A DNA stretch of 53,070 nucleotides, from positions 1 through 53,070 of the forward strand of contig REDR01000076.1 of the NCBI GenBank assembly GCA_007693385.1. The letters are read 5' to 3'. Every line of letters starts with the position of its first letter. Position 1 is the first letter of the stretch. The position numbers and the translations under genes were made by a program. This document shows positions 18,664-35,442 of this stretch, in pieces. Source of the stretch: Anaerolineaceae bacterium. GTDB taxonomy: Bacteria; Chloroflexota; Anaerolineae; Aggregatilineales; Phototrophicaceae. The notes beneath the pieces were generated by a model. That model was given only the letters and a program-made list of their open reading frames with translations. It had not been told where the DNA came from and ran no database searches.

Positions 18664-18699
18664 CGTCAGTTCCTCACGGTTTGGTCGGTCAGCGCGTGG

Positions 18700-18729
18700 C
18701 GGGGGAACACGATAGGCCGCGCTCCCCCG
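18700..18729 (-). other. Intergenic stem-loop before the COG0523 gene
   Basis: In the 78-bp gap between the UroD-thioredoxin gene and the GTPase gene, CGGGGGA and TCCCCCG form a 7-bp stem with a 16-nt loop. No T-tract follows, so it is more likely an mRNA processing or stability element than a full terminator. Confidence 0.4.
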
Positions 18730-18741
18730 TGTATATGCGGG

Positions 18742-20103
18742 CTAATTCATCATCGCCCGAATAGCGTCCAGCAATTCATCGTTGCTGGGGATGATCGAAG
18801 AATATTTCAGTTGACCGTTGATGTAGATGCTCGGCAAGTTGGCGACGCCCATCTTCATACATCTGGCGACGTTTTCGCGCTCGGTGAATTTGTATTCCAC
18901 AATGTCCACCGGCACGCCAATCTCCTTGACCGCCCGCGTCGCCGCACCGAACATGTAGGTACATGCGGCGCATGTCTCCGAGTCCAGCGTGAACACCTCA
19001 ACCAGAGGCCGCTCCAGATTATCGTAATCCGGCAATGTCACTTCGATGTTGAATGTGTCGGGCGACTCGTAGTTCGCCAGCATCGCGCTGACGCGCTCCG
19101 GATCGCGTATCGCCTCCACAATGCCGATCACGTTTTCAATCGGCACATCGTAGGGCATATCACAGCCGGGCGCGATGATTAGATTGTGCGTGGAGAGATT
19201 CGCCAGCATATCCACCGCGAATTTCATGTTGTCCTGTTGTGTGCCCAATAGCATGACGGTTGTTAGTGGGATGTTGCCGCCGATGACCACATCGTAGCGG
19301 TCAGTGATCGCTTTCGCTTCCAGCAGGTTGATATTCTCGTCAATGCCGATGGAGTCCGGCTTTGTCTGGCACATCGCTTCGATGTTTTTAGTGGCATCAC
19401 CGCACACGAAGAAAGACGAAAGCGAGCCGGATGTGCGGATGTGATCGAAGATGTCAGTATACGGCACGGCCAAGAATTGCTCGAAGTGGCGCGGGCCGAT
19501 CTGCGATACTAGCGGATCAACTATTGCGATGACATCCATACCGGCTTCGACGTAGAAGTCGGTCAGGCGGTTAGTGACCGCTGTCGTGTAGTCGATCAAC
19601 GTTTGCAGGGCGTCGGGGTTCATCATCATATCCATGAAGATTTCCGTGCCGCGCAGATGCGAAGCCAGCGTCAGCGGGCCACACACCAGACCATACAACG
19701 CGGTCTTTTCGCCAACCGCCGCTTTCATCCGCGCCATCACATCCAGCACGATGGGCAAGCGCCCGTCGCTTTTTTGCGGCAGATAGTCCGGCACTTGCAG
19801 ATCACCGGCCAACGGGTGCGACGCGACGGAGGGCGGCGCTTTATCCGCCCACAGCAGATCACAGCCCAGAATTTCGGCCTCAATTTGCAGGTCAAACAAT
19901 ATCGGCTGGCCGTCCGGATCGTAAACGCGGTTGACTTCCATCAACGCCTCAAATAACTTGTCAGCGTCGGTCAGCACTTCAGTCGCGCTATAGCCCTTCA
20001 ATTTGCCCGCGTGAATACCGGCAAACGGCAACCACGGCACAGCATCCACCGGCTCACGGCGCAGAGTCGCTAGCAAGCGCTCTTTATTGGTCATCTTGCT
20101 CAT
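18742..20103 (-). CDS. UroD-family methyltransferase-like protein fused to a thioredoxin-like domain
   Basis: A 453-residue two-domain protein. Residues 1-345 are a UroD/MtaA/CmuA-type barrel (TNKERLLATLRREPVDAVPWLPF). Zn-methyltransferases of this superfamily carry HxC plus a later Cys. Here the first motif is FFVCGD (C234, with F232 where His is expected) and the second is IIAPGCDMPYDVPIENV (C314). Residues about 365-453 form a thioredoxin/glutaredoxin-like domain with active site C378-A-A-C381 and the cis-proline motif NLPSIYING. The frame is open upstream into xylA; the ATG at 20103 with AAAGGA 10 nt upstream is preferred. It may move methyl groups from the operon's corrinoid domain, or use the CxxC pair to reduce or transfer thiols. 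No described function is assigned. Confidence 0.78.
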   Translation of the reverse strand: MSKMTNKERLLATLRREPVDAVPWLPFAGIHAGKLKGYSATEVLTDADKLFEALMEVNRVYDPDGQPILFDLQIEAEILGCDLLWADKAPPSVASHPLAGDLQVPDYLPQKSDGRLPIVLDVMARMKAAVGEKTALYGLVCGPLTLASHLRGTEIFMDMMMNPDALQTLIDYTTAVTNRLTDFYVEAGMDVIAIVDPLVSQIGPRHFEQFLAVPYTDIFDHIRTSGSLSSFFVCGDATKNIEAMCQTKPDSIGIDENINLLEAKAITDRYDVVIGGNIPLTTVMLLGTQQDNMKFAVDMLANLSTHNLIIAPGCDMPYDVPIENVIGIVEAIRDPERVSAMLANYESPDTFNIEVTLPDYDNLERPLVEVFTLDSETCAACTYMFGAATRAVKEIGVPVDIVEYKFTERENVARCMKMGVANLPSIYINGQLKYSSIIPSNDELLDAIRAMMN

Positions 20104-20125
20104 AATATCATGTCCTTTTCCGACA

Positions 20126-21292
20126 TCAACGGACTCCGAGCAGTAGCTCGATAGTGAGTTGGTCGAGTTGCTCATACGGATAGTTACGCTGACCGAGCGC
20201 GTCGCGGTCAAATGTCATGCCGCGCAGGGCTTGTGCTTTTTCCGGCGTGTACGCGCCCAGCACATCATTCATCGCGCCATCATCGGCGTGAATTTCCGCC
20301 AGCAATGCTTGAATCTCGGTGTCAGCGTTGAAGCGCTCAACCTTCTCTTTGAGGATTAAGTACGTCCGCATACAGCCCCGCGCAAACGATTTCACGTCGT
20401 CATAGCCGGATGTGCGGTAAGCGTGCGCGTCGAAGTGACGACAGCCGTCATAGCCGACATCTTCGAGGAATTTGACGAGGAAGAACGCCTGCTTGAGCAT
20501 CGCTGAACCGAAGCGGAAGTCTTGATCGTAGCGGCCAAACATCTGGTCGTTGAGATCAATGTGGAATAGTTTGCCCGCGCCGTAAGCCTGCGCGACGGCG
20601 TGCATGAAGTTCAGCCCGGCCATGTGCTCATGCGCGACTTCCGGATTCACGCCGACCATATCCGCATGATCTAGCGTATTGATGAAAGCCAGCAATGCGC
20701 CGACGGTGGGCAGATAGATGTCGCCGCGTGGCTCGTTGGGCTTCGGCTCTAACGCGAATTTCAGGTCATAGTCCTGATCTTTGACGTATTCACACAGGAA
20801 GTTGAGCGCTTCACGGAAGCGCTTCTCGGATTCCAGCGCGTCTTTCGTCGCATCGCTCTCCACGCCCTCGCGCCCACCCCAGAATACGTATGTCGTCGCG
20901 CCCATCTCCACGCCGAGATCAATGGCGTTCATCGTCTTTTGCAGTGCATAAGCCCGCACCCGTGCATCATTGGCGGTGAATGCACCATCCTTAAACGCCG
21001 GATCAGTGAAAAGATTGGTCGTCGCCATCGGCACGACGATACCGGTATCATCCAACGCTTGCTTAAAACTGCGCTTGATCGCGTCCGCTTCGGCTGGCGT
21101 GGCGTCAATCGGGATCAAGTCATCATCGTGAAAGTTGACCCCCCACGCGCCGACTTCCGCCAGCATGTGGACAATCTCCACCGGTGAGATTTTAGTGCGT
21201 GTTGGCTCGCCGAATGGATCGCGCCCGGGATTGCCCACCGTCCACAATCCAAAGGTGAATTTATGTTCCGGTTTAGGTGTATAGTCTGACAT
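20126..21292 (-). CDS. xylA: Xylose isomerase
   Basis: Interconverts D-xylose and D-xylulose (often also glucose/fructose). The 388-residue TIM-barrel protein resembles the shorter, actinobacterial-type class I enzymes: [18 protein letters not shown] at the N-terminus, catalytic VNFHDDD, metal-binding [36 protein letters not shown] and RHFDAHAYR. The ATG at 21292 is chosen over an in-frame TTG one codon earlier because AAGGA is 7-8 nt from the ATG. The gene lies between the methyltransferase-corrinoid fusion (118 bp upstream) and the UroD-thioredoxin gene (22 bp downstream), so it is co-transcribed with corrinoid-system genes. Its partner xylulokinase is at 16077. Confidence 0.93.
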
Positions 21293-21309
21293 CAAGTTTT
21301 CCTTTCAGT

Positions 21310-21357
21310 GGCGCACGGTGCGCCTATTTGATGAAGGGCGCAACACTGTGCGCCCTT
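21310..21357. repeat. Two REP-like palindromes before xylA
   Basis: GGCGCAC/GTGCGCC (7-bp arms, one-base centre, 21310-21324) and AAGGGCGCA/TGCGCCCTT (9-bp arms, 6-nt loop, 21334-21357) lie in the 118-bp gap between the fusion gene and xylA. They share the GGCGCA-type core with the palindromes near 8830. In the leftward transcript they would fold as two adjacent hairpins just before the xylA ribosome site and may act as an mRNA processing or stability boundary. Confidence 0.65.
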
Positions 21358-21410
21358 GTCTTTATCGCTACACATTTCATCAAGCCCTATCTGATAGCGT
21401 CTATCAACGC

Positions 21411-23363
21411 TCAGATGGCTAGTAATTCTTTGGCTTTGCGGACGGCGGAACTGGCATCCGGCGCGAAGTCGTCCGCGCCGATTTCATCGACGAAAGTCTG
21501 CGTCACGCCTGCGCCGCCCACCATGATCTTGACCTGATCGCGCAGTCCGGCGGATTGGATCGCTTCGATGATCTTCGCCATCATCGGCATGGTCGTCGTC
21601 AGCAGAGCCGACATGCCGACCAGTTGCGGTTGATGCGTCTGGATGGCCTCGACGAATTTCTCCGGCGGCACATCCGGCCCCAGATCAATCACCTCAAAGC
21701 CCGCACCTTCCCACATCATCGCCACCAGATTTTTACCGATGTCGTGCAAGTCGCCCTTCACCGTGCCGATGATCGCCACCGCTAACGGCGACGTGCCACC
21801 TTCGGCCAGCTTGGGGCGCAACACTTTCATGATGCCTTGCGTACTGATCGCAGACGCCATCATCTCCGGCAGGAAGTACTCGCCACATTCAAATTTGCCG
21901 CCGACGATCTCCATGCTCGGCACGACGATCTTGGTTACGATGTCCGTCGCGGGCGTGCCAGATTCGAGCGCTTCTTCGGTCAGGGCAACGGCCTGCGGCA
22001 TGTTGCCGACGATGATGGCTTCCTGTATCTGCAAGAGTGCCTGTGGCATGGCATCACGCTCCGCCGCGAGTGCGGCGGCCTCTTCAGGCGTCAAAGCCTG
22101 CCCCGCCATGTACGCATCGGGGCTGGCATTGATGCTAACGGGAACTTCGGGAGCTGACGGATAATCTTCCCAATAAGATTCGGGGCGGCGTCCGGGCGCG
22201 TTGTCAGCCTCGTAGACGCCGTATTCCTGTATAGCTTCCCACATAGCGATGATGTTTTCTGGCGGTACGTTGGCCTGTATGTTGTGGACTGCCGCCGCAA
22301 CAAAGCCGCCGCCGGGCGCGAGATCGTCAACGCGGCGGCGTACTTCATCCTTAACCTGCTTTGGCGTGCCATCGGTAAAGACGCCCTGCGTATCCACCGC
22401 GCCACCCCAGAAAACGATCTGATCGCCAAAATCGCGCTTAAGCGCTTTGGATTCCATGCCCGTCGCGCTGACCTGCACCGGATTGATGATGTCAAAGCCG
22501 GATTCGATCAGGTCGGGGATGATGTCACGGATCGCGCCGCAACAGTGATAGAAAATCTTGGCGTCGGTACGCGCTTTGATGAAATCGCAGATTTTCTTGT
22601 GGCGCGGCTTAATCATCGAGCGATAAACTTCCGGGCTGACCAGCAGACCGAATTGTCCGGCCACGTCGTCGGCTTCCTGCACCACGTCGACGTAATCACC
22701 GAGCATCGGCAAGGCGATCTCCCAGTAAGCGAGTTTCAGGTCAACGATGGTGTCCATCAAATACTCGATCCATTCCCGATTGTTGACCAGATCGGGATAA
22801 ACCTTTGCATAGCCGCGCGTCCAGCAGGTAATCTCGAAGAAGCCCGCCGCCATGCCGCCAGCGATAACTAACTCGCCTAAATCTTCGGCCACCCGCCGCG
22901 CATTCTCGCGCAGGCCGACGAATCGCGCCGGATCAGTAGGATTCGGCCATTTGAAATTTTTGATGTCGTCAATGCTGGTCGCTTCTGAAAGCGGATGATC
23001 GAACATATCATAGAAGAAGCCGCCCTCTTGCGGCATCCGCCAGCCAATATGCCATTCATCATGAAAGAAGTCGTAGCCGGGCAGATCGGTACTGTTGATG
23101 TCGATGTTAAACGTGGCGGACGAACGCGGCGCGACATTACGAGCATCGCATCCGAGTTTCTCGCGCACGTCATCGTCAACGGTGGCGATTTGCTGGAAAA
23201 TGTCCATCACCTGCGTCTCTTTTTCCGGCAGGCCGAGATATTGCCGCAAACGCCGATAAGCGTGAACGTTGATACTAGTCAACACCGTGCCACCCAGATC
23301 AAACGGAACGCGATCCGGTTCGCGGTGGTTTAAGGCTAATTTTGTGCGCTCTCGTGAATTCAT
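21411..23363 (-). CDS. UroD-type methyltransferase fused to a corrinoid-binding domain
   Basis: A 650-residue protein that joins what are normally two polypeptides. Residues 1-382 are a UroD-superfamily methyltransferase (NSRERTKLALNHREPDRVPFD; zinc-type motif FYHCCGAIRDIIPD with H273 and C275; VHNIQANVPPENIIAMWEAI). A linker (about 383-440) leads to a methionine-synthase/MtaC-like module: a helical cap (LLQIQEAIIVGNMPQAVALTEEAL) and a B12 Rossmann domain with the cobalt-ligand motif D538-L-H540-D-I-G543 and GGAGVTQTF. Known MT1/corrinoid systems take a methyl group from a methylated substrate onto Co(I). Its place between a sugar transporter and xylA suggests a methylated sugar; this is inference. 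The ATG at 23363 has GGAG 9 nt upstream. Confidence 0.88.
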   Translation of the reverse strand: MNSRERTKLALNHREPDRVPFDLGGTVLTSINVHAYRRLRQYLGLPEKETQVMDIFQQIATVDDDVREKLGCDARNVAPRSSATFNIDINSTDLPGYDFFHDEWHIGWRMPQEGGFFYDMFDHPLSEATSIDDIKNFKWPNPTDPARFVGLRENARRVAEDLGELVIAGGMAAGFFEITCWTRGYAKVYPDLVNNREWIEYLMDTIVDLKLAYWEIALPMLGDYVDVVQEADDVAGQFGLLVSPEVYRSMIKPRHKKICDFIKARTDAKIFYHCCGAIRDIIPDLIESGFDIINPVQVSATGMESKALKRDFGDQIVFWGGAVDTQGVFTDGTPKQVKDEVRRRVDDLAPGGGFVAAAVHNIQANVPPENIIAMWEAIQEYGVYEADNAPGRRPESYWEDYPSAPEVPVSINASPDAYMAGQALTPEEAAALAAERDAMPQALLQIQEAIIVGNMPQAVALTEEALESGTPATDIVTKIVVPSMEIVGGKFECGEYFLPEMMASAISTQGIMKVLRPKLAEGGTSPLAVAIIGTVKGDLHDIGKNLVAMMWEGAGFEVIDLGPDVPPEKFVEAIQTHQPQLVGMSALLTTTMPMMAKIIEAIQSAGLRDQVKIMVGGAGVTQTFVDEIGADDFAPDASSAVRKAKELLAI

Positions 23364-23393
23364 TATTGTTGCTCCATTATATTTCAAATCACG

Positions 23394-24698
23394 CTATGAT
23401 GAAGTCGGCACGGGCAATGTTGCTAACTGCCTTTCCGTCCCGTCATGGTGGGCGCGTGTCAGCAATATGACCGTCGCCACATCCGACAATTCGCCGATTT
23501 GCCGGTCAATCGTAACTGCGCGTAGCGGACTGACCGCCCCTAGCGATAGCGTCGCTCCGGTCTGGCCGTCGGCGGATACCCCGCGCAAAAGTAAATCGGC
23601 TTCATCGAATACGCCGAAACCGCCGCGCAAATGCCAGCCATCATCGGACGCGGTGAGCGTCGGCTGTGCTGTGCAGACTCCCGCCGGTTGCACGGCGAGA
23701 ATCGCGCCATCACAACGGCACGCGCCCCATTCAATCTGGAACGACGTTTTGCCATGAGGGGCGATTTCACGCAACGGGCTGAGGACTTCCGCTTCCATCA
23801 AGTAAATATCGCTGTCGGCATAGTTCAGGTTCGCCACCTGTCCCGCGCCAATCGTCCATATCTCAACCGAAGAGCCGTTGTCCGGATAAGGTTGTCCGGC
23901 TTCGTATGTGAACATCTTGGCGAAACCATACCCTTCCGCAGTGTTACTGAAGGCCACCCAACCGGCATCAGAATCCAGCCCGACCTTGCCGATATGCCAC
24001 ATATACGGCGCGAAAAATAGGCCGCTATCATCGGGCGTCTGCCATTGCGGATTATCCGGTTCGCCGAACATCACATGATAGCCGGACTCGAATTGGCTAT
24101 CGGGATTAAGCGGCGTGGTCATCACACAGCCCGGCTCGTGCGTCAACCGGCCATCCGTGCCGATGCGCTCGGCGCGTAGTTGAACCACATCCCAGATACT
24201 CCAGCAGATAGGGCGATCTTTGATGTTGTGGAACGTCAAATCCAGCGTCACACGGGTACTACCCGCCCGCAGACTCGCCCGCCGCACGATCTGAACGCCG
24301 GTGCGATGGTCGGGCGGGCTGGTCATGCCGATGTTGGCATATACATCATCGCCGGTTAATTCCGTCAGGCTATAGCGTCCGGTATCCAGTACCGGATCGG
24401 GCGGGCCGTGCCATTGTGTGTCATCATCCCAGCCTTGCGGTGCAGGCCATGTCTTATCGCCGCCGTAATTCTTCCACGCCGCCAACGAGCCATCGCCCTG
24501 ATTTTCTTCGGCGCTGAATAGTTGACCGGCTAGATCACGATCTACGAATAAGTAGGCATACTCGCCTAGATCATAGGCCATGATGCGCCCGCCAATCTCC
24601 GGCACCGCCACCAGACGAATCAGCCCGTTTTCCAGATGATAGGCATTCCAGCCCTTGAAGTCGGCCTGTCGGATCGCGCAACGAGAAACTTGTGTCAT
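23394..24698 (-). CDS. DUF4380-like, mutarotase-fold protein
   Basis: A 434-residue protein without signal peptide. The N-terminal half has the galactose-mutarotase-like pattern seen in DUF4380 proteins: LENGLIRLVAVPEIGGRIMAYDLG, then GDKTWPAPQGWDD, VTLDLTFHNIKDRPICWSIWDVVQL, and ENQGDGSLAAWKNYGG. The C-terminal part is beta-rich without a recognised motif. Its ATG overlaps the stop of the CUT2 ATPase gene by 4 bp (ATGA), so it is tightly coupled to the transporter. It is followed 30 bp later by the methyltransferase-corrinoid fusion. A sugar epimerase/mutarotase or sugar-binding role is plausible from the fold, but no function is established. The family call is from memory of its motifs. Confidence 0.68.
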   Translation of the reverse strand: MTQVSRCAIRQADFKGWNAYHLENGLIRLVAVPEIGGRIMAYDLGEYAYLFVDRDLAGQLFSAEENQGDGSLAAWKNYGGDKTWPAPQGWDDDTQWHGPPDPVLDTGRYSLTELTGDDVYANIGMTSPPDHRTGVQIVRRASLRAGSTRVTLDLTFHNIKDRPICWSIWDVVQLRAERIGTDGRLTHEPGCVMTTPLNPDSQFESGYHVMFGEPDNPQWQTPDDSGLFFAPYMWHIGKVGLDSDAGWVAFSNTAEGYGFAKMFTYEAGQPYPDNGSSVEIWTIGAGQVANLNYADSDIYLMEAEVLSPLREIAPHGKTSFQIEWGACRCDGAILAVQPAGVCTAQPTLTASDDGWHLRGGFGVFDEADLLLRGVSADGQTGATLSLGAVSPLRAVTIDRQIGELSDVATVILLTRAHHDGTERQLATLPVPTSS

Positions 24699-26233
24699 AG
24701 TTTTCCTGCCTCCTCCGCCGCTGAGATGGCGAAATCGTCACGGATGCCCGTCGCGTATTCCATTAAGCCTTCTTCAGTGGACTCCGGGCCGTCTACGATG
24801 CCGGTGATACGCCCTTCGGACATCACCACGATGCGATGCGACAGCGACATAATCTCCGGCAATTCAGAAGAGATCAACAGGATGCTGATTCCCTGTCGGG
24901 CGAGTTCGCGCATGAGTTCGTAAATTTCCGCCTTCGCGCCCACATCAACGCCGTGTGTAGGTTCATCTAAAATCAGCAATTTCGGTTCAGTCGCCAGCCA
25001 TCGCGCCAGCACCGTCTTTTGTTGATTGCCACCACTCAGACTACTGACCGGATTGTTGATTGACGCTAGTCGGATGTCTAACGTTTTCACCAGTTGCTTG
25101 ACCATGCCGCGCTCGCGTCCATAGTTGATCGTCTTGGTCGCCGACATACGCGGCAACTGTGCCATAGACATGTTATGCTGGATAGATAATCCCATGAATA
25201 AGCTGAGGACTTTGCGATCTTCCTGCACCATACCGATACCGGCTTTGATCGCCTGTGCAGGCGTGCTAAAGCGGACGGGCTTGCCGTCGAAGATGATGCG
25301 CCCGCTACTGAATTTATCCGCGCCGAAGATCGCACGGGCGACATCGCTACGCCCCGCACCAACCAGACCGGATAACCCTAGAATCTCGCCGCGCCGTATG
25401 TCAAAGCTGACATCATTGAAGCGCTTGCCGGTCAGATTACGGACTTCCAGCAGATTTTCGCTGGAATAAGTCTGCGGGATGTTGACCTGATCGCGGTCTA
25501 GCTCGCGCCCGACCATCATATTGATGATCTTCTGCTCGGTGGCCTCCGCCGTATCAATTGTATTGACGTATGCGCCATCGCGAAAAACGGTGATGCGATC
25601 AGATATTTCCAGCACTTCATCTAACTTGTGCGATACGTAAATTACCGGAATATCCTGCGCTTTCAGGCGCTCGATAACGTCGAACAAGCGCTGTGACTCC
25701 GATGCGGAGAGGGAAGAATTCGGCTCGTCCATGATGATGAGTCTCGCGTTGGTGGATAGCACCCGCGCAATCTCGATCAACTGGCGCTGGGAGATGGTCA
25801 AATCCTGTACCGGTGTGAAAACATCCACCTTCAAGTTGACCGCCTCTAGCGCTTTATGTGCCTGTTTTTTCAGCCGTCTCCAGTTGATGACGCCAAAGCG
25901 CGATTCCATGCGTCCGGTGAACAGATTCTCGATGACGCTCATGGACGGCATCATAGATAATTCTTGATGAATGACGGCGATACCGGCGTTTTGTGCTTCA
26001 TAGGGCGTCTTAAAGCGCACGTCATCCCCATTATAGATAACCGTGCCTTCGTCACGATGAACCGCGCCGCCCAAAATTTTAATCAGCGTTGACTTTCCCG
26101 CGCCGTTCTCACCAACCAGCGCATGAACTTCGCCGGGCTTCAAATCAAACCGCACACTCTTCAACGCCCGCACGCCGCCATAACGTTTGGAGACGCCATC
26201 CACCTGTAGAATATATTCGCTATTTTGGCTCAT
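24695..26233 (-). CDS. CUT2 sugar ABC transporter ATPase (RbsA/XylG type)
   Basis: A 512-residue double-NBD ATPase that drives monosaccharide import. The first half has Walker A GENGAGKST, the sequence LTISQRQLIEIARVL in place of a canonical signature, and Walker B LIIMDEPNSSLS. The second half has the usual degenerate P-loop GLVGAGRSD, an intact signature SLSGGNQQKTVLARWL and ILDEPTHGVDVGAK. This asymmetry is normal for RbsA/XylG/MglA. The frame extends 43 codons upstream, but ATG 26233 (MSQNSEYILQVDGVSKRYGG) begins the conserved region and has AGGA upstream. It lies 137 bp after the binding-protein gene and overlaps the DUF4380 gene by 4 bp. Confidence 0.93.
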   Translation of the reverse strand: MSQNSEYILQVDGVSKRYGGVRALKSVRFDLKPGEVHALVGENGAGKSTLIKILGGAVHRDEGTVIYNGDDVRFKTPYEAQNAGIAVIHQELSMMPSMSVIENLFTGRMESRFGVINWRRLKKQAHKALEAVNLKVDVFTPVQDLTISQRQLIEIARVLSTNARLIIMDEPNSSLSASESQRLFDVIERLKAQDIPVIYVSHKLDEVLEISDRITVFRDGAYVNTIDTAEATEQKIINMMVGRELDRDQVNIPQTYSSENLLEVRNLTGKRFNDVSFDIRRGEILGLSGLVGAGRSDVARAIFGADKFSSGRIIFDGKPVRFSTPAQAIKAGIGMVQEDRKVLSLFMGLSIQHNMSMAQLPRMSATKTINYGRERGMVKQLVKTLDIRLASINNPVSSLSGGNQQKTVLARWLATEPKLLILDEPTHGVDVGAKAEIYELMRELARQGISILLISSELPEIMSLSHRIVVMSEGRITGIVDGPESTEEGLMEYATGIRDDFAISAAEEAGKL

Positions 26234-26322
26234 ACTGAAAATTTGTCCTGTCAAACATTTTTTGAATTTAGTTATATCGGCGCAGGCATCAGACCGCGCT
26301 TTTGCATCTTGGCGTAAGCGAT

Positions 26323-26343
26323 GGGGAACGGCGAACCGTCCCC
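26323..26343 (-). other. Stem-loop after the CUT2 binding-protein gene
   Basis: On the minus strand GGGGACGG, a TTCG loop and CCGTTCCCC form a GC-rich hairpin (8 bp with one bulged base) 27 bases after the binding-protein stop. No T-tract follows. It probably protects the 3' end of binding-protein mRNA, as in other ABC operons. Confidence 0.55.
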
Positions 26344-26370
26344 CACTGCTGTTACAGATCATTCAACGTG

Positions 26371-28386
26371 TTACGGTGTCCAGAACTCGCTGATGTTTTC
26401 AGCCGTGACGATTGATGCTTCCGTGACCAGACGGGCACACGGCGGCACTTCACCGGCCACCAGATAGTTGAACAGGCGGATCGCCGGATCATGACCCTGT
26501 GCAAACGGGTTCTGACCGATAGTGGCATAGATCACGCCGGACTCGACGAATTCCATCGTCTCGTCCACGAAGTCGAAGGAGATGACCCACACTTCACCGG
26601 CCATGCCCGCGTCACGAACGGCGGCGGCGGCACCGAATGGGCCACCGGCAGTCACGTAGATGCCGGACAGATCAGGATGCGCGGTCATGAAGTTCTGCGC
26701 TTGCGTGTAAGCGGTATCGCCCTGATCGAGATTCTCTACTTCACTGACGATCTCGATGTCGGGGTAATTCTCTGCGATTTCATCGACAAAGCCTCTACGG
26801 CGTAGCTCGTGCGCTTCCACCGAGAAGAAACCGGTGATAACGCCGACCTTACCTTCGCCGCCAATCGCTTCGGCCATCGCCGCCGCCGCCGCTTGACCCT
26901 GTAGATAAAGGTCAGCGCCAACGAAGAACAGGCGGTCATTCGGGGCGTCCGTCTCAGAATTAAATGTCGCTACCGGAATGCCTTCGGATACTGCGTCATT
27001 GATGAACGGTACCAGACCGGCATCACCGGCAATCGTGGCGATAGCATCGTAGCCCTGCACGATGGCGGCTTCGATACCACCACTGAAATCATCAGCCATG
27101 TGTGTATCACCGGGGATGATCCAGTCAACGGTAGTGTTGTATTCGGCTAAGATGGCGGCGGCTGTCTCCGTACCTTCTTTTACCGGGAACCAGAACGGAT
27201 TGTTTTCCAGACCTAGCACAGCGATGCGTAGCGGCTCTTCCGGCATCATATCAACCGGCATAACGACGCCCTCATCGGCGGGCTGGCATTGTGATGTGAA
27301 CCAGTCCGGATCACCCGGAGCGATATCTTGTACTGCGGCGGGCAGAGCGCCATCACGCGGCGTCCAGAAATCATAGATATTCTCGGCGGTGACGATGGCG
27401 GCTTCCGTGACCAGACGGGCACACGGCGGCACTTCACCGGCCACCAGATAGTTGAACAGGCGGATCGCCGGATCATGACCCTGTGCAAACGGGTTCTGAC
27501 CGATAGTGGCATAGATCACGCCGGACTCGACGAATTCCATCGTCTCGTCCACGAAGTCGAAGGAGATGACCCACACTTCACCGGCCATGCCCGCGTCACG
27601 AACGGCGGCGGCGGCACCGAATGGGCCACCGGCAGTCACGTAGATGCCGGACAGATCAGGATGCGCGGTCATGAAGTTCTGCGCTTGCGTGTAAGCGGTA
27701 TCGCCCTGATCGAGATTCTCTACTTCACTGACGATCTCGATGTCGGGGTAATTCTCTGCGATTTCATCGACAAAGCCTCTACGGCGTAGCTCGTGCGCTT
27801 CCACCGAGAAGAAACCGGTGATAACGCCGACCTTACCTTCGCCGCCAATCGCTTCGGCCATCGCCGCCGCCGCCGCTTGACCCTGTAGATAAAGGTCAGC
27901 GCCAACGAAGAACAGGCGGTCATTCGGGGCGTCCGTCTCAGAATTAAATGTCGCTACCGGAATGCCTTCGGATACTGCGTCATTGATGAACGGTACCAGA
28001 CCGGCATCACCGGCAATCGTGGCGATAGCATCGTAGCCCTGCACGATGGCGGCTTCGATACCACCACTGAAATCATCAGCCATGTGTGTATCACCGGGGA
28101 TGATCCAGTCAACGGTAGTGTTGTATTCGGCTAAGATGGCGGCGGCTGTCTCCGTACCTTCTTTTACCGGGAACCAGAACGGATTGTTTTCCAGACCTAG
28201 CACAGCGATGCGTAGCGGCTCTTCCGGCATGATGTCAACCGGCACGACGACGCCTTCATCTTCTGGCTGGCATTGTGACGCGAACCATTCTGGCTCGCCC
28301 GGTTGCGGATCATCTTGCGCGGTGATCGTCGTCATGCCCAGCGCACTAATCAGCGCCAATACGATTAAATATCTTACAACTCGCAT
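26371..28386 (-). CDS. Tandem-duplicated CUT2 sugar-binding protein
   Basis: A 671-residue exported protein holding two complete periplasmic-binding-protein domains of the RbsB type; the family norm is about 320. The signal peptide is MRVVRYLIVLALISALGMTTITAQ, with no lipobox. Each domain starts near EPLRIAVLGLENNPFWFPVKEGTE and includes QGYDAIATIAGDAGLVPFIN, GKVGVITGFF and PFAQGHDPAIRLFNYLVAGE. The repeat period is 328 residues (984 bp) and the two cores are identical in protein sequence. The linker (RDGALPAAVQDIAPGDPDWF) contains a piece that mimics the mature N-terminus (QDDPQPGEPEWF), so the protein arose by duplication and in-frame fusion. Start ATG 28386 has GAGGA about 9 nt upstream. 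Ligand unknown, probably a pentose or modified sugar. Confidence 0.88.
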   Translation of the reverse strand: MRVVRYLIVLALISALGMTTITAQDDPQPGEPEWFASQCQPEDEGVVVPVDIMPEEPLRIAVLGLENNPFWFPVKEGTETAAAILAEYNTTVDWIIPGDTHMADDFSGGIEAAIVQGYDAIATIAGDAGLVPFINDAVSEGIPVATFNSETDAPNDRLFFVGADLYLQGQAAAAAMAEAIGGEGKVGVITGFFSVEAHELRRRGFVDEIAENYPDIEIVSEVENLDQGDTAYTQAQNFMTAHPDLSGIYVTAGGPFGAAAAVRDAGMAGEVWVISFDFVDETMEFVESGVIYATIGQNPFAQGHDPAIRLFNYLVAGEVPPCARLVTEAAIVTAENIYDFWTPRDGALPAAVQDIAPGDPDWFTSQCQPADEGVVMPVDMMPEEPLRIAVLGLENNPFWFPVKEGTETAAAILAEYNTTVDWIIPGDTHMADDFSGGIEAAIVQGYDAIATIAGDAGLVPFINDAVSEGIPVATFNSETDAPNDRLFFVGADLYLQGQAAAAAMAEAIGGEGKVGVITGFFSVEAHELRRRGFVDEIAENYPDIEIVSEVENLDQGDTAYTQAQNFMTAHPDLSGIYVTAGGPFGAAAAVRDAGMAGEVWVISFDFVDETMEFVESGVIYATIGQNPFAQGHDPAIRLFNYLVAGEVPPCARLVTEASIVTAENISEFWTP
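26417..28230. repeat. 984-bp-period direct repeat within the binding-protein gene
   Basis: Bases 26417-27246 and 27401-28230 (830 bp each) appear identical: the segments compared by eye match, and translations in several frames agree. Identity stops sharply at both sides. At 26401-26416 versus 27385-27400 there are five differences; beyond 27247/28231 there are scattered, partly amino-acid-changing differences. Identical cores with diverged edges point to gene conversion after an older duplication, or to an assembly effect. Confidence 0.85.
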
Positions 28387-28597
28387 TTGGGATATTCCTC
28401 CATAAAATTTAATCAAATTCTTTGCGATTTTTTGTATAGGACAGGCGCTTGGTTTAATCAGAGCCTATCCTCCGCTAGCACCGACGAATATCAATAGGCG
28501 ATCTCCTTGATTATCTGCGGTCACTTTACGGTCAATAACGGGGCGACGACATTTGCGCCGCCTCCGGTGAACCCTCGTCTAGCAACAACCGCCGAAC

Positions 28598-29683
28598 TCA
28601 GCCTGACTTACCGGCGAATCGATCACGGATGTCGGTGAATATGGTGCGCTCACTACGCCTGATCTGGTCAATGGACACCGCCAGAATGATGACGACGCCG
28701 ATTGTGATGGTCTGCGCGTAGCTGGGGAACTGCAACAGCACGAAAGCGTTACGCAACACAGCCATGATCGCCGCGCCGATAACCGCACCGAAGATACTGC
28801 CCTGCCCGCCCATCAAGCTCGCGCCGCCGATAACAACCGCCGCGATCACATCTAGTTCAAGCATCTGCCCGGCGCTGGTCGATGCGGTGGACAATAGTCC
28901 GGCCTGCATCACACCGGCTAGCGCACATAGCACACCGGTCAGCGTATAGGCGAATATCTTCACGCGGTCTACCGATACGCCGGATAACCGCGCCGCCTCC
29001 TCGTTACTGCCGACGGCGTATATCTGCCGCCCCAGCACGGTATAGCGCAAGAATAAGCTGAATATAATGACCAGCGAGAACATGATTATCACTGGCATCG
29101 GGATGTCGCCGACATAGCCCGCGCCTAAAAAGTTGATATGGGGGTTACGCATCGGGATATTGCTGGCGACAGTCCCCTGAATGCCGGTTGCCAGCAACAA
29201 CGTTAAACCCCGTGCGATACTTAACATGCCCAACGTGGTGATAAACGGATTAACTTTGATCTTGGTAATAATGAAGCCGTTGATGAAGCCTAGCATCGCG
29301 CCGAAGCCGAAGCCGACGATGACCGCCGGTAACGGGGGCAATACATCGGTATACATCAAACGCGCCGTCATCATTGCCGCCGCCGCCATCATCGAACCAA
29401 CCGACAGGTCAATGCCCGCCGTGATAATAATCATCGTCATGCCAATGGCGATGATGCCGATGGTGGACATACTGCGGAGTATGTTGAAGATATTGCGCGA
29501 AGTCCAGAAGAATTCACTTTGACTGTTGACGAAGAGAACGAGCAAGATCAGCGCTAGCAGGACGCCCATCTCGCGCATCTGGAATAATCGTTTGAAGAAA
29601 TCCAGAATAGAATCGGGTGTATCGTCCTGTGGCGGCGTATATTGAGTGGTATTTTTCTCAATACTATCGGGCGCTTGTGACAT
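28598..29683 (-). CDS. CUT2 sugar ABC transporter permease (RbsC type)
   Basis: A 361-residue inner-membrane permease with about 9-10 hydrophobic segments. Typical motifs are TIGIIAIGMTMIIITAGIDLSVGSMM, NGFIITKIKVNPFITTLGMLSIARGL, GSNEEAARLSGVSVDRVKIFAYTLTGVLCALAGV and VIGGASLMGGQGSIFGAVIGA. The ATG has GGAG 9 nt upstream. It is the first structural gene of the leftward operon; a 211-bp gap with no gene (28387-28597) separates it from the binding-protein gene. A candidate promoter lies at 29805-29833. Confidence 0.93.
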   Translation of the reverse strand: MSQAPDSIEKNTTQYTPPQDDTPDSILDFFKRLFQMREMGVLLALILLVLFVNSQSEFFWTSRNIFNILRSMSTIGIIAIGMTMIIITAGIDLSVGSMMAAAAMMTARLMYTDVLPPLPAVIVGFGFGAMLGFINGFIITKIKVNPFITTLGMLSIARGLTLLLATGIQGTVASNIPMRNPHINFLGAGYVGDIPMPVIIMFSLVIIFSLFLRYTVLGRQIYAVGSNEEAARLSGVSVDRVKIFAYTLTGVLCALAGVMQAGLLSTASTSAGQMLELDVIAAVVIGGASLMGGQGSIFGAVIGAAIMAVLRNAFVLLQFPSYAQTITIGVVIILAVSIDQIRRSERTIFTDIRDRFAGKSG

Positions 29684-29804
29684 ATTTTTTTCTCCAAAGT
29701 ATCTTTAACCATCCGGCGCGATTATCCGCACCAGACTTAGTAAGTTTATTATCCAAACTAATTTGCCCTAGAACCATCATACTCCCTTATGACGCATTTT
29801 GTTT

Positions 29805-29833
29805 AGAATATTTGTCATGGTCAGGACATGCAA
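29805..29833 (-). promoter_or_regulatory. Candidate promoter of the leftward sugar/corrinoid operon
   Basis: On the minus strand, TTGCAT (29833-29828), a 17-nt spacer and TATTCT (29810-29805) sit between the GntR gene and the permease gene, about 120 bp before the permease ATG. The long leader has no obvious palindrome. Confidence 0.4.
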
Positions 29834-29871
29834 AATGTAATTTTAAGGTGGTACGGCGCCCTTCTGTGTGG

Positions 29872-30552
29872 TCATTTCCCCTCCTCTCCCTGTGATTTTT
29901 CAAAACGCGACCAGATCAACATGACATGCTCGGCGATGATCTGCGCGGCCGCATCCGCATCACGGCGGCTGATCGCGGACAGAATCGGCTCGTGCGTGTC
30001 GGCTAGTTCACCTAAATCAGTGAAATAATGTTGATGGGTCTGCAAAATAAAGCGTTGAATTTGCGAATACAATGGCATCCACGCATTGACCAATACCGGA
30101 CTGCCTGACCACTCGCAGATCAAGCGGTGAAAATCCATGTCATATTCCACCAATCCCGCCATATCGCCGGCCTCGCCCGCCCGACGCATATCTTCGGTTA
30201 GGGAGCGCAACATTTTTTCGTATTCTGGCGTCATGTTGGCGATGGCGCGGCGAATGGCAAAGGATTCGATGGTACTGCGGATAGCGAAGAATTCGTAAAT
30301 CTCAGCCGTCGTTGTATCTGTGACGACTGTCGCCCGCCTTGCCTGTCGTTGTACCAGCCCGTCGCGCTCCAAGCGCTGGAGTGCCTCGCGCACTGGCCCT
30401 TGACTTGTCCCCATATCAGCGGCGATTTCTAACTCCACTAGCTTTTCACCGGGTGCGATCTCGCTACGCACGATAGCCGAGCGTAGCATTTCGTAGATTT
30501 GGTTCGCCAGTGAACCCGGGTTTGAACGGCGACGGGTTGACAACTTAGACAT
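29872..30552 (-). CDS. GntR-family regulator, FadR/FCD subgroup
   Basis: A 226-residue transcription regulator. The N-terminal winged helix has SLANQIYEMLRSAIVRSEIAPGEKLVELEIAADMGTS (shown here in pieces: LANQIYEMLRSAIV, APGEKLVE) and SQGPVREALQRLERDGLVQ. The C-terminal FCD effector domain has metal-binding-type residues in VEYDMDFHRLI and THEPILSAISRRDADAAAQIIAEHV. FCD regulators commonly sense sugar acids or other carboxylates, which fits the pentonate pathway encoded divergently. A perfect 23-bp palindrome lies 20 bp upstream of its start, so it probably represses its own transcription and perhaps the divergent ROK operon. It is upstream of and co-oriented with the CUT2 operon. Confidence 0.9.
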   Translation of the reverse strand: MSKLSTRRRSNPGSLANQIYEMLRSAIVRSEIAPGEKLVELEIAADMGTSQGPVREALQRLERDGLVQRQARRATVVTDTTTAEIYEFFAIRSTIESFAIRRAIANMTPEYEKMLRSLTEDMRRAGEAGDMAGLVEYDMDFHRLICEWSGSPVLVNAWMPLYSQIQRFILQTHQHYFTDLGELADTHEPILSAISRRDADAAAQIIAEHVMLIWSRFEKSQGEEGK

Positions 30553-30571
30553 TGTGGGCTACCATCCTAAT

Positions 30572-30594
30572 TGATTATCAATTATTGATAATCA
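30572..30594. promoter_or_regulatory. Palindromic operator upstream of the GntR gene
   Basis: A perfect inverted repeat with 10-bp arms TGATTATCAA and TTGATAATCA around TTA, centred 31 bp before the gntR-type start in the divergent gap. Symmetry and position suggest the binding site of the GntR/FCD regulator. Confidence 0.6.
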
Positions 30595-30679
30595 TTATAG
30601 AGACAAGCGTTTGTGCTGTCAAGAGACGTAAAATTAACGGTTGGTTTCACGGTTCGATGGGTAATGCGGAGACGGCGAG

Positions 30680-30707
30680 TTTTCATTTATAGTGTTCGCG
30701 CTATAAT
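30680..30707 (+). promoter_or_regulatory. Promoter and overlapping inverted repeat for the ROK/Weimberg operon
   Basis: TTTTCA (30680-30685), a 16-nt spacer and a consensus TATAAT (30702-30707) form a promoter about 60 bp before the ROK start. An inverted repeat TTATAGTG-TTCG-CGCTATAA (30687-30706, one mismatch between 8-bp arms) covers the spacer and most of the -10. This is a position suited to repression, perhaps by the ROK protein itself. Confidence 0.55.
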
Positions 30708-30768
30708 GATGCTACTCGCACCCGTGCGACTCATTATAAAGCCATGTAAAGACAGGCCGTGAATAATC

Positions 30769-32007
30769 ATGAAAAACGGAAGTTCGGTTGACCACACCAC
30801 CATGCGGGCGATGAATACCGCGCTTATCTTGAACACATTGCACCAGCACGCGCCGCTATCGCGGGCGGGGATCGCCCAGCACACCGGCCTGAACAAGGCC
30901 AGCGTCTCTAGTATGATCCGCGAACTGATCGCTAGTGGAATGGTCGAAGAAGTGGGCACAATCAGCAAGACTTCCGACATCGGACGCCCGGGCATCAATC
31001 TGCGCCTGAATTCGGAAGTCGGCTATATTATCAGCGCGGAGATTGGCGCGGATTTTATCTCGGTGGTGGCGGTCAATTTCGCGTTAGAAGTCGTGACGCG
31101 GCGTTACATCAACGTACCCGATGACCCCGACTACGACACGATGATGGATTATCTCATCGCTAACCTACGCGATGTACACGGGCAAGTGCGGCGACAGGAT
31201 AAACCGATCTTAGCCATCGCGCTCGGCGTGCCCGGCATGGTCGATATGCAGGCTGGACGCCTATTATTCGCACCTAATCTGGGCTGGCGCGACTTACCAT
31301 TGAAGCAGATCATCCAGCGCCATTTTGATGTGCCGGTCTTTCTGGCGAACGAGGCAAATATGGCCGCGCTAGGCGAGAGTTATCTCGGCACCGCGCCGGA
31401 TAGCCGTCTGCTTTTATACGTCAGCTCCGGCATCGGATTAGGTGGCGGCATCGTCATCAACGGCCAGCTATTGACCGGCATCAACGGCTTCGCGGGGGAA
31501 TTCGGCCACATGACCGTCGCACGCAATGGCTTGCCGTGTCGTTGTGGCAATGTCGGCTGTTGGGAGACAGAAGCGACGCAATTGGCGCTATTCCGCCGCA
31601 TCCGCGAGGCGCTGAGCGACGGACGCGACAGCATCCTGCGCCAGACCAACCCCAACGGAGTGCTAACTACAGAAGATGTCGTCTACGCCGCAGAAAATGG
31701 GGACACGATAGCGCAGACAGCATTAGTCGATACCGGTCACTGGATCGGAGTCGGTATCGCCAACCTGATAAAAGCGTTGAATCCGGAGCATGTCGTATTC
31801 GGTGGCAAGATGGCGCTGGCGCATGATTTTCTAATGCCCGCCATCCGTGAGGCTATCACGAAAAATACATTCGCGTGGATGCAAGAGCACACGCATCTAT
31901 CCATTGCCACACACATCGAAGACGCCTGCGTGATGGGCGGCGCGGCGATGGTACACCGGCAAATCGTCAACAATCCGAACGGCTGGCTTACCAGCACAGA
32001 GGGGTAA
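30769..32007 (+). CDS. ROK-family transcriptional regulator (XylR/NagC type)
   Basis: A 412-residue protein with an N-terminal winged helix (SRAGIAQHTGLNKASVSSMIRELIASGMV) followed by a ROK sugar-binding/kinase-like domain. The ROK zinc motif is CRCGNVGCWETEA, the sugar region is GYIISAEIGADFISVV and ANEANMAALGE, and the C-terminal motif is NLIKALNPEHVVFGGKM. Proteins with this layout (XylR, NagC) repress sugar genes and are released by a sugar. It is the first gene of the rightward operon, 7 bp before the RACo gene, and divergent from the GntR gene. In this context xylose or a related pentose is the likely effector; that is inference. Confidence 0.92.
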   Translation: MKNGSSVDHTTMRAMNTALILNTLHQHAPLSRAGIAQHTGLNKASVSSMIRELIASGMVEEVGTISKTSDIGRPGINLRLNSEVGYIISAEIGADFISVVAVNFALEVVTRRYINVPDDPDYDTMMDYLIANLRDVHGQVRRQDKPILAIALGVPGMVDMQAGRLLFAPNLGWRDLPLKQIIQRHFDVPVFLANEANMAALGESYLGTAPDSRLLLYVSSGIGLGGGIVINGQLLTGINGFAGEFGHMTVARNGLPCRCGNVGCWETEATQLALFRRIREALSDGRDSILRQTNPNGVLTTEDVVYAAENGDTIAQTALVDTGHWIGVGIANLIKALNPEHVVFGGKMALAHDFLMPAIREAITKNTFAWMQEHTHLSIATHIEDACVMGGAAMVHRQIVNNPNGWLTSTEG

Positions 32008-32014
32008 TCGAGCA

Positions 32015-33808
32015 TTGGACGAGCGATACACAGTCGATCTACAGCCCGTCGGCAGGCGGGCACACATCGCGGCGGACGAGACGCTACTCGACGCCGCCCG
32101 TCAAAGCGGCGTCGCACTGACATCAGTATGCGGCGGCATTGGCGCGTGTGATACCTGCCGCGTGCAGTTGGTCAGTGGACGCTTGACCGCGCCGAGCATG
32201 GCAGAAGAAGCGCTGTTCTCCCCCACCGAATTGGGCGCGGGTTGGCGGTTGGCTTGTCAGGCCAGCCCGCAAAGCGATGTCCGGCTCGATATTCCGCCGG
32301 AATGTCTGGGCGCGGCGCAACGGTTACAGGTCGAAGGTGAAGCGGTTGATCTGGATTTCGCGCCGTCCGTCCGTCCGCTTGATGTCACCATCCCCCCCGC
32401 CAGCATCCACGCTCCGCACGCCGATGATGTACGCCTACGCGCCGTATTGCGGGCACATGCCCTGCCCGATGTGGTCTTGTGGCGGGCGGCGCTCTGTCGT
32501 CTGCCGGATAGCCTGCAAGCCGGTAATGGCCGTGTGCGGGTGATCGTACGGGACGAACGCGACATAATCGCCATCTTGCCGCCATCAACCGCCGTGTTCG
32601 GGCTAGCCTTCGACATCGGCACAACCGGCATGGCTGGCTATCTGGTTGACTTGCAAAGCGGTGAAATTCGCGCCCGCGCTGGCGCGATGAATCCACAGAT
32701 CGCCTATGGCGAAGATGTGGTCAGCCGCATCATGTACGCTAATCAGCATCAAGACGGCGCATTACAGACGAAGCTCGTCGCTTCGTTGAACGGCTTGATT
32801 GATACGCTGTGCCACACCGCCGACGCCACACCGGAGCAGATCGTTGATGTCGTGGCGGTAGGCAATACCGCCATGCACCATCTGTTCGCCGGTTTGCCGG
32901 TGCGTCAACTGGGCGAAGCGCCGTATGCGCCGGTTGTACAGGGCGCGTTACGCTTCCCCGCCGGTGATGTCGGCTTGCGGACTGCGGCGGGCGCGGTAAT
33001 CTATATGCCGCCCAATATCGCCGGTTATGTCGGCGCGGATCATGTGGCGATGTTGGCCGCGATTCGCGCATGGCAACCGGATAGCGGCGTCCGTCTCGCC
33101 ATCGACATCGGCACGAACACCGAATTAACGCTTTCAGCAGGCGGGCGGCATCTGGCCTGTTCGTGCGCTTCTGGCCCGGCTTTTGAAGGCGCACACATCC
33201 GCGACGGGATGCGGGCGGCACCCGGCGCTATTGAGCGCGTCCGGCTGATTGACGGCGAAGTATTCGCGCAAACCATCGACGATCAACCGGCCACCGGCAT
33301 CTGTGGCTCAGGCATTCTTGAGGCGATCAGTGGGCTGGCCGCTAACGGCAAGATTGACCAGCGCGGCGCGTTCACCACATCGGGCGAATCCGCTTTCTTG
33401 CTGGTGGCGGCGGAACAGACCGGACACGGGCGCGACATCATCATCAGCCGCAAAGACATCGCCGAGATTCAACTGGCGAAAGCGGCAATCGCGGCGGGGA
33501 TCACCGTGCTATTGCAAAAAGTCGGCCTGAACACAAGCGACATCGAGCGCGTCATCATCGCCGGTGCGTTCGGCACATATATTGATCTAGCGGGCGCGGT
33601 GCAAATCGGCATGTTGCCGGATGTGGCGTTAGATCGCTTCGAGCAAATCGGCAACGCGGCGGGCGTCGGCGCATGGCAGTTCTTACTATCGCGCCATCTG
33701 CGCGAACAGGCGGAAGCGCTGGTCGCCGATGTCGATTACATCGAGTTGACAACCGAACCAGACTTTCAACATCTATTCATTGATTCTATGGCGTTGCGTC
33801 CGATGTGA
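32015..33808 (+). CDS. RACo-type reductive activator of corrinoid proteins
   Basis: A 597-residue protein with a 2Fe-2S ferredoxin domain and a DUF4445/ASKHA ATPase domain. Fe-S ligands are C39, C45, C48 (SVCGGIGACDTCRV) and C81 (RLACQA). ATPase motifs include GLAFDIGTTGMAGYLVDL, AVGNTAMHHLFAGL, RLAIDIGTNTELTL and GAFGTYIDLAGAVQIGMLPD. RACo and RamA-like activators use ATP to drive reduction of inactive Co(II) corrinoid to Co(I). The obvious client is the corrinoid domain encoded at 21411-23363. The start is a TTG preceded by GAGGGG 10 nt upstream, 7 bp after the ROK stop. Finding it inside a pentonate-catabolic operon is unusual. Confidence 0.9.
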   Translation: MDERYTVDLQPVGRRAHIAADETLLDAARQSGVALTSVCGGIGACDTCRVQLVSGRLTAPSMAEEALFSPTELGAGWRLACQASPQSDVRLDIPPECLGAAQRLQVEGEAVDLDFAPSVRPLDVTIPPASIHAPHADDVRLRAVLRAHALPDVVLWRAALCRLPDSLQAGNGRVRVIVRDERDIIAILPPSTAVFGLAFDIGTTGMAGYLVDLQSGEIRARAGAMNPQIAYGEDVVSRIMYANQHQDGALQTKLVASLNGLIDTLCHTADATPEQIVDVVAVGNTAMHHLFAGLPVRQLGEAPYAPVVQGALRFPAGDVGLRTAAGAVIYMPPNIAGYVGADHVAMLAAIRAWQPDSGVRLAIDIGTNTELTLSAGGRHLACSCASGPAFEGAHIRDGMRAAPGAIERVRLIDGEVFAQTIDDQPATGICGSGILEAISGLAANGKIDQRGAFTTSGESAFLLVAAEQTGHGRDIIISRKDIAEIQLAKAAIAAGITVLLQKVGLNTSDIERVIIAGAFGTYIDLAGAVQIGMLPDVALDRFEQIGNAAGVGAWQFLLSRHLREQAEALVADVDYIELTTEPDFQHLFIDSMALRPM

Positions 33809-33846
33809 CGCGGCGCAAATCAACAAAGAGAAGAGGGTTTTTACAC

Positions 33847-35442
33847 ATGATGATTACCGGTGAACACTTTATCGCAGGTGAACGTAGCAAGGCAGGAACA
33901 CAACAATTCGCTAGCCATAATCCGCGCACACGGCACGACGGACAAACGCAATTCGCCGAAGCCACCGCGGGGGAGATCGAGCGCTGTGTGACGGCGGCAC
34001 AGTCCGCCTATGCCATCACGCGCCACATGCCAGCCGCGCAACTGGCCGATTTTCTGGATCAGGTGGTAGAGGAAATCATGGCGCTCGGTGATGAGCTATT
34101 GCAGATCACCGACGAAGAGACCGCGCTCGGCATCCCCCGCCTGACCGGAGAACGTGCCCGCACCACCGGACAACTGACGCAATTCGCAGGGTTGCTCCGC
34201 GAAGGCGCTTACGTGGAAGCCATCATCGACACCGCCCAGCCGGATCGTCAACCTGCCCCGCGCCCGTCAATCCGCCGCATGTTACAGCCGATTGGTCCGG
34301 TGGCGGTATTCTCGGCGAGTAACTTCCCGTATGCATTTGCGACGGCGGGCGGTGATACCGCCTCAGCATGGGCGGCGGGTTGTCCGGTCATCGTCAAAGG
34401 GCATCCGGCACACCCGATGACATCGGAATATTTCGCGCACGCCATCAACCGCGCCATCGAAAAGACCGGCTTTCCGGCGGGGTTCTTCTCGCTGATTCAA
34501 GGTTCAAGCGTGGCCGTCGGGCAGACGCTCATCACCAATCCGGGGATCGCGGCAGTCGGATTCACCGGCTCGCTCACCGCCGGACGCGCTATCTATGACG
34601 CCGCCGCCGCCCGCCCTACCCCGATCCCGGTCTACGCTGAAATGGGAAGCGTTAATCCGGTGGTGATCCTGCCCGGCGCATTGGCGGCGCGGTCTGCTGA
34701 TCTGGTCGAAGGGCTGGTCGGTTCGGTGACTATGGGGACGGGGCAATTCTGCACCAATCCCGGCATCGTGTTCATGATGGATGATGACGCCACCGCCGGA
34801 TTTATTGATGGCGTGGTTGAGAAGATGCGCGAGACACAGCCCGGCGTCCTACTCAATCCGCAGATACAGCAAGGTCTTAGCAAAGCGGTCAGCGCGACGG
34901 CGGCGCGGCAAGGCGTCGAGAATCTGCTGGGCGGGCACGAACTGGATACGCCCGCCTGCGGTTACGCACATACTGTCCTCAAGACGCGCTCGGATTTCTT
35001 CCGCGCTGACCACGCTTTACATCAAGAGCATTTCGGCCCGGTGACGCTGTTCGTACTGTGCGAATCCGCCGACGATCTACTGCTCACGCTCAACGCGCTG
35101 GAAGGCAACCTGACGGCCACCATCCACGCCGAAACGGACGAGATCGAGGCGGCGGGCGCGTTGCTGGGCATCCTGCGCGAGAAAGTCGGGCGGTTGATCT
35201 GGAATGGCTTCCCCACCGGCGTTGAAGTGGTCTATGCCATGCAACACGGCGGGCCATATCCGGCGACTACCGCGCCCGCCACGACATCAGTCGGCATGAC
35301 CGCCATCAAGCGCTTCATGCGTCCGGTGGCCTACCAGAATATGCCGGATGCGCTTCTGCCGGATGCGCTTAAAGACGCGAATCCGTTAGGTATCTGGCGC
35401 ACGGTAGATAACGCGCTCACCCGTCAGCCGTTGGATGGTTAG
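33847..35442 (+). CDS. Alpha-ketoglutarate semialdehyde (2,5-dioxovalerate) dehydrogenase
   Basis: Oxidises alpha-ketoglutarate semialdehyde to 2-oxoglutarate, the last step of the oxidative (Weimberg-type) pentose pathway. The 531-residue aldehyde dehydrogenase is of the KGSADH type III-like subgroup: VFSASNFPYAFATAGGDTASAWAAGCPVIVKGHPAHP, here NFPYAFATAGGDTASAWAAG, then VGFTGSLTAGRAIYD, the Glu motif YAEMGSVNPV and the catalytic Cys in GTGQFCTNPG. The frame opens further upstream in the RACo gene, but ATG 33847 (or the next codon, also ATG) follows a GAGGG site and begins the family sequence MITGEHFIAG. RACo stop to start gap is 38 bp. Confidence 0.88.
   Translation: MMITGEHFIAGERSKAGTQQFASHNPRTRHDGQTQFAEATAGEIERCVTAAQSAYAITRHMPAAQLADFLDQVVEEIMALGDELLQITDEETALGIPRLTGERARTTGQLTQFAGLLREGAYVEAIIDTAQPDRQPAPRPSIRRMLQPIGPVAVFSASNFPYAFATAGGDTASAWAAGCPVIVKGHPAHPMTSEYFAHAINRAIEKTGFPAGFFSLIQGSSVAVGQTLITNPGIAAVGFTGSLTAGRAIYDAAAARPTPIPVYAEMGSVNPVVILPGALAARSADLVEGLVGSVTMGTGQFCTNPGIVFMMDDDATAGFIDGVVEKMRETQPGVLLNPQIQQGLSKAVSATAARQGVENLLGGHELDTPACGYAHTVLKTRSDFFRADHALHQEHFGPVTLFVLCESADDLLLTLNALEGNLTATIHAETDEIEAAGALLGILREKVGRLIWNGFPTGVEVVYAMQHGGPYPATTAPATTSVGMTAIKRFMRPVAYQNMPDALLPDALKDANPLGIWRTVDNALTRQPLDG

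Follow-up and report, generated by a model that had tools for sequence, protein, structure and literature searches.

The window, by which we mean the whole stretch of 53,070 nucleotides that was analysed, encodes a CUT2 sugar-binding receptor whose gene is located between a CUT2 permease gene (upstream) and a CUT2 ATPase gene (downstream) (Table 1). The original prediction had this receptor serve one transporter, and its place within one complete CUT2 operon was borne out by the adjoining genes for a permease, encoded separately from the receptor, and a two-domain ATPase. With a single permease gene and a single ATPase gene next to the receptor, one importer served by it would be the simplest reading. 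No NCBIfam equivalog for the receptor scored above cut-off, and no ligand was assigned. The nearest solved chains by sequence were CbpD (7x0p) and sugar-binding proteins such as 3c6q, 2qvc and 2h3h.

The region 16077-35442, comprising the receptor operon and its divergent neighbour, also encodes a RACo-type corrinoid activator and two URO-D-type methyltransferases, of which one has thioredoxin and the other B12-binding domains, together with a xylose isomerase, an FGGY kinase, a ROK regulator and an aldehyde dehydrogenase near 2,5-dioxovalerate dehydrogenase. One idea raised by this gene set is a putative pathway that imports an O-methylated sugar or cyclitol and demethylates it.

Table 1. Features of the receptor operon and of the repeat within the receptor gene
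Feature	Position	Strand	Basis
Xylose isomerase, above TIGR02631 cut-off; downstream of the receptor	20126-21295		profile match
URO-D and B12-binding protein, corrinoid methyltransferase-like	21411..23387	-	profile matches
DUF4380 protein, weakly mutarotase-like	23394..24698	-	profile matches
CUT2 ATPase, two ABC domains, 555 aa as listed; start perhaps downstream	24695..26362	-	profile matches
Doubled CUT2 sugar-binding protein gene, 671 aa	26371..28386	-	ORF; two Peripla_BP_4 stretches
Domain 2 repeat unit, 984 bp register	26374..27357	-	self-comparison
Identical core, domain 2 copy, 830 bp	26417..27246	-	self-comparison
Interdomain linker, about 13 residues without counterpart in register	27319..27357	-	self-comparison
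Domain 1 repeat unit, 984 bp register	27358..28341	-	self-comparison
Identical core, domain 1 copy, 830 bp	27401..28230	-	self-comparison
Probable signal peptide without lipobox cysteine, residues 1-23	28318..28386	-	translation; lipobox regex
CUT2 permease (BPD_transp_2), 361 aa	28598..29683	-	profile matches
GntR/FCD regulator	29872..30552	-	profile match

The receptor frame starts with an ATG at 28386, preceded by a ribosome-site-like GGAGG that is seen directly in the sequence, and ends with a stop codon at 26371-26373. Its probable signal peptide may be cut after TITA, a guess by the usual rule, and the lipobox regex was negative on the N-terminus. Among the fused receptor genes described below, 9 of 55 N-terminal stretches carried a lipobox-like pattern, that of L143 being doubtful. 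An AlphaFold2 model of the whole receptor, calculated from a two-sequence alignment, reached a mean pLDDT of 34.6 and was set aside.

Two Peripla_BP_4 (PF13407) stretches were detected in the receptor, and the protein scored 338.8 bits against the Pfam cut-off of 35.1. The ORF, the Pfam matches and the self-comparison agreed on a single fused gene with two CUT2 domains and a 984-bp period, as had been predicted with correct coordinates and lengths. At an offset of 984, the self-comparison displayed a single uninterrupted match of 830 bp. Homology between the copies was taken to extend over 945 bp; the 29 mismatches in it all fell outside this match, and when 29 mismatches were placed at random, a clean run this long was obtained in 0 of 20000 trials. 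The flanks of the repeat had been described as different, which they were: the homologous edges showed 79-86% DNA identity between the domains versus 100% in the core. The domains had also been called identical. This is true of the 830-bp core, while the whole domains were 97.1% identical over 315 aligned residues. The synonymous sites of the core were identical too; therefore, selection at the protein level alone would be insufficient as a cause. Within the window, this was the sole in-strand repeat with at least 40 exact bp at a spacing of 150-1300 bp.

Orthologs were sought in 298 genomes of the class using the window protein as query (E <= 1e-55), with few candidates scored per genome, and seven genomes matched, including the window's own. 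An independent MAG, Chloroflexi bacterium Ww555 (L035), contained a syntenic operon with a doubled receptor of 721 aa. In three of the seven genomes (G569, G537 and G073, from two families), the receptor was a single-domain protein in an open frame of 358-378 aa, and its neighbours were again the genes for the ATPase, DUF4380 and URO-D. A permease gene was visible beside it in two of the three, and the contig of the third stops there. The translations of all three single-domain orthologs, which belong to group A like the window, had a lipobox-like N-terminus. The remaining three matching genomes encoded fused receptors of about 30% identity. The window and Ww555 were joined in the trees of the ATPase (1.00), DUF4380 (0.87) and the concatenation (0.85), and the permease tree gave no clear placement (0.32). 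The simplest history would be one fusion in the lineage of the window and Ww555, homogenised afterwards in each of them; separate fusions would be a less simple alternative.

Fused CUT2 receptors were recurrent. Many of the receptor matches in 41 genomes of the window's family and order fell pairwise in one frame. The regions fetched from them were picked for long frames or paired matches and are thus a non-random sample. As self-BLAST of the ORFs had shown no internal matches, domain 1 and domain 2 were compared by local alignment of the split sequence. In these selected candidate regions, 60 fused genes with 76-100% amino-acid identity between their domains were counted, and another five (L091-L094 and L113) with 31-35%; no counted fused gene fell between 35% and 76%. 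The 60 consisted of 54 clustered genes, which formed 25 clusters at a 55% identity cut, together with the triple gene L107, L109 and four genes in L157-L159. L069 and L090 were included despite touching a contig end. Excluded were the ORFs L062 and L144 (internal similarity of about 29%), L098 (broken frames), G099 C164 (a pair known from the match list), and genes cut by contig ends, such as L119 and the group C pieces G000 C15/C94, G004, G040, G014, G260, G265 and G268. Exact repeats of at least 400 bp were present in 18 of the 60 genes.

Several of these loci differed in character. L107 (G080:C169:2500-8500) from Ww555 has a 904-aa receptor frame with three near-identical domains, and L053 (G000:C13) is a second fused receptor of the window's genome, with domains 80% alike. 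The fused CUT2 receptors L091, L092, L093 and L094, whose domains are merely 32-35% alike, perhaps combine two specificities, judging by this divergence. In L098 (G055:C72:6000-10500), the domains are identical over 892 bp at 917-bp spacing, and there are two broken frames with the same break in both copies.

Six genomes of the order assembled into 1 to about 20 contigs yielded 178 PF13407 matches, and the matches listed contained at least 17 fused genes (nine in G281, six in G316, one each in G297 and G284, none in G007 and G030), all with 82-100% amino-acid identity between domains. In this survey, the long frames with one match listed at L144-L147 gave no accepted pair, and five such frames are left out (G281 C3:1047424, G316 C3:273714 and three of G007). 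The original prediction regarded fusion as unusual for CUT2, which these counts contradict for this order.

The long contigs also bear on the possibility that the doubling is an assembly artefact, in which the true gene has a single domain, or two less similar domains were merged and written twice. The window's genome is a k=55-type, short-read-type assembly. Its group C receptor, the third fused one of this genome, is split over contigs C94 and C15 of G000; the break lies at an exact repeat of at least 299 bp, and the two contigs overlap by exactly 55 bp. Several further group C pieces stop at or near contig ends. Assemblers can merge copies that are 97-99% alike, and such graph clean-up could have raised a core of perhaps 97-99% identity to 100%; the exact 100% identity of the window's core is therefore insecure. 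Such clean-up could not, however, have raised an edge-like identity of about 80% to 100%. Moreover, the two copies have distinct flanks, linker and edges in one frame, and the same architecture was recovered in the separate assembly of Ww555. As 17 of the 60 fused genes came from genomes assembled into 1 to about 20 contigs, the pattern is not explained by errors of assembly. One of them (L142) is located on a single contig of 5.6 Mb and has domains 98.2% identical in protein and 96.2% in DNA, and another (L139), in a 1.46 Mb contig, displayed the same mosaic as the window. We regard an artefact at the window's locus as highly improbable. In metagenomes assembled from short reads, genes of this kind do break, and merging may occur as well.

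Tandem repeats that evolve in concert resemble each other more closely inside one gene than they resemble their orthologous counterparts in other species. This was the case in group A. The cores were 100% (window) and 98.9% (Ww555) identical in DNA within each gene and about 72% between the two genes, and the edges 78-86% within each gene and 61-75% between genes. Sites of orthologous fused pairs were classed as positional (shared D1-D1 and D2-D2), within-gene (D1-D2) or cross. For the window and Ww555, the core contained 0 positional, 222 within-gene and 1 cross sites, the N-edge 0, 1 and 0, and the C-edge 2, 12 and 0.

These edges, alike within the gene, together with a core that lacks positional signal, would also be expected from independent recent in-frame duplications without conversion, where doubling and collapse are ongoing and the observed pairs are young. 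The single-domain orthologs and the triple gene demonstrate that domain number changes. In addition, among 11 genes profiled, four (L056, L077, L090 and L095) were alike over almost the entire unit, which a simple recent duplication would give as well. However, a single event would have left the core and the edges of the window gene equally diverged. Besides L139, the mosaic of an alike core and diverged edges was found in L035, L057, L073, L075, L078 and L097 among the profiled genes.

Phylogenetic analyses were conducted separately for cores and edges in the four groups with at least four genes (B, C, D and F). In the core trees, D1 and D2 were sisters in 24 of 26 genes. In the edge trees, they were sisters in 5/5 genes of group F, 6/9 of group C, 1/5 of group B and 0/7 of group D. 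The edge pairing by gene in groups F and C again fits independent duplications, whereas in group D the cores were sisters in 7/7 genes and the edges grouped by position. The topology of group D shows a fusion predating its species, with cores homogenised since. The site counts of group G (L071/L075) conflict with independent duplications in the same way, with 18 positional, 4 within-gene and 4 cross sites in the edges against 4, 99 and 4 in the core (18, 9, 6 and 4, 94, 2 under the zone limits of the tree analysis). In groups D and G, the sequences thus place the duplication before the split of the species compared, while groups C and F and the window's group A are compatible with either history. 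Homogenisation was not constant, since L066/L067, from two species of one genus, retained ancestral differences (core 38 positional, 14 within-gene, 1 cross). Gene conversion is well supported in kind by these comparisons, and independent duplications without conversion seem an improbable account of the whole.

The original prediction suggested an old duplication followed by recent gene conversion. The order of events agrees with the contrast between the core and the edges of the window gene. The duplication can be called old relative to the last conversion only, as no positional sites in the group A core placed the duplication before the split from Ww555, and syntenic single-domain orthologs occur.

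The ratio dN/dS between domains was below 1 in all 36 pairs computed (0.041-0.508). The lowest value belonged to L068, with 97.5% protein identity at a pS of 0.37. These values fit selection for two working domains, with the reservation that conversion itself complicates dN/dS as a measure between domains. It might be argued that the doubling is neutral, recombination both making and homogenising tandem domains while the second site brings nothing. Two domains are evidently not required, given the syntenic operons with one, and conversion alone would be able to keep the copies alike. The consistently low dN/dS values and the recurrence in 25 clusters argue against neutrality, as does the near restriction of repeats to receptor genes, judged by position in loci chosen for their receptors. 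We therefore consider neutral doubling rather unlikely.

The repeat scan covered 149 loci of at least 3 kb (995,512 bases, receptor-chosen, partly overlapping, window included), using the same repeat definition as for the window. The exceptions were L055 and L157, with spacings of 459 bp and 182/161 bp, respectively. At L055 3556 (G011), a neighbouring ORF has the internal repeat, with 44 exact bp. A general tendency to duplicate gene segments was considered as a cause and rejected on this distribution.

That the window is of chloroflexotan origin is deduced from its ortholog in Ww555. For the breadth outside the order, a group C protein served as query (E <= 1e-30, at most eight candidates scored per genome) against 161 genomes sampled across the phylum. 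Matches were obtained in 28 genomes, and no fused pair beyond the window's own genome was among the matches listed, which is weak evidence of absence. In the G085 family (13 genomes, 177 matches), there were at least three pairs among the matches listed: G085 C10 (85% alike), G099 C164 and G100 C12 (175 and 60 bits). The first of these is L112, one of the 60 fused genes, from Bacterium 1XD8-76, a genome outside the window's group. The other non-chloroflexotan genomes had one pair among the matches listed, G081 C14 (L113, 31% alike). The fused architecture occurs elsewhere yet looks enriched in the window's group, all rates being lower bounds. No report of fused CUT2 receptors or of their concerted evolution was found among the papers listed in a search of titles and abstract openings of the open-licence literature with narrow terms.

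Taken together, we consider it probable that the receptor was doubled in frame, that its halves were homogenised by recombination and that it provides two sites for one importer. The product would be a secreted protein whose two CUT2 domains, both complete and near-identical, lie in series and serve the one permease/ATPase pair of the operon. The starting point would have been a gene for a single-domain receptor, of the kind that syntenic operons elsewhere still have, and its domain would have been duplicated in frame. Later recombination between the halves, by gene conversion and perhaps also unequal crossing over, would then have overwritten most of one domain with the sequence of the other, removing the differences in the core, and the ends near the signal peptide, the linker and the stop codon would have partly escaped. 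In this bacterial group the process is recurrent, with many different CUT2 receptors doubled, one tripled, and their domains evolving in concert. We infer that both sites are active. Two equivalent loaded sites per chain are probably available to the importer. By analogy, the gain is likely to be more loaded sites near the importer, and the benefit would be a rise in capacity and local concentration rather than added specificity.

In GlnPQ-type importers (Lactococcus), tandem binding domains are fused to the membrane domain and differ in ligand and affinity (PMC8025302). The window receptor resembles them in that one chain carries a tandem pair of extracytoplasmic binding domains for one importer. 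It differs in its CUT2 sugar family, its separate receptor chain and its near-identical domains; GlnPQ domains differ in specificity, while those of the window, compared by sequence, share an identical core and most residues overall. Like single-domain, RbsB-like receptors with Peripla_BP_4, it belongs to the CUT2 family, has the same permease/ATPase neighbours and has syntenic orthologs among them; unlike them, it has two domains, and L107 three. As in other concerted tandem repeats, likeness is greater within the gene than between species and the repeat edges escape in some groups. Unlike the usual cases, what is repeated is an entire binding domain (about 270-350 residues), and this in many unrelated uptake receptors of one bacterial group. 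The new part is this breadth: doubling, with the copies kept alike, affects many sugar receptors that are unrelated to each other.

A one-gene curiosity may thus become a testable rule, that receptors of this class with two or three near-identical domains are kept alike by recombination. The single- and double-domain receptors in syntenic operons are natural matched pairs for the role of a second identical site in an ABC importer, a question that lies beyond GlnPQ, given the differences between its two domains. More tentatively, and less likely than not in our view, a standing recombination across the class may reset both the domain number (one, two or three) and the sequence of its receptors. 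Many uptake systems would then be multivalent with identical sites, and site number may vary within populations, tuning uptake.
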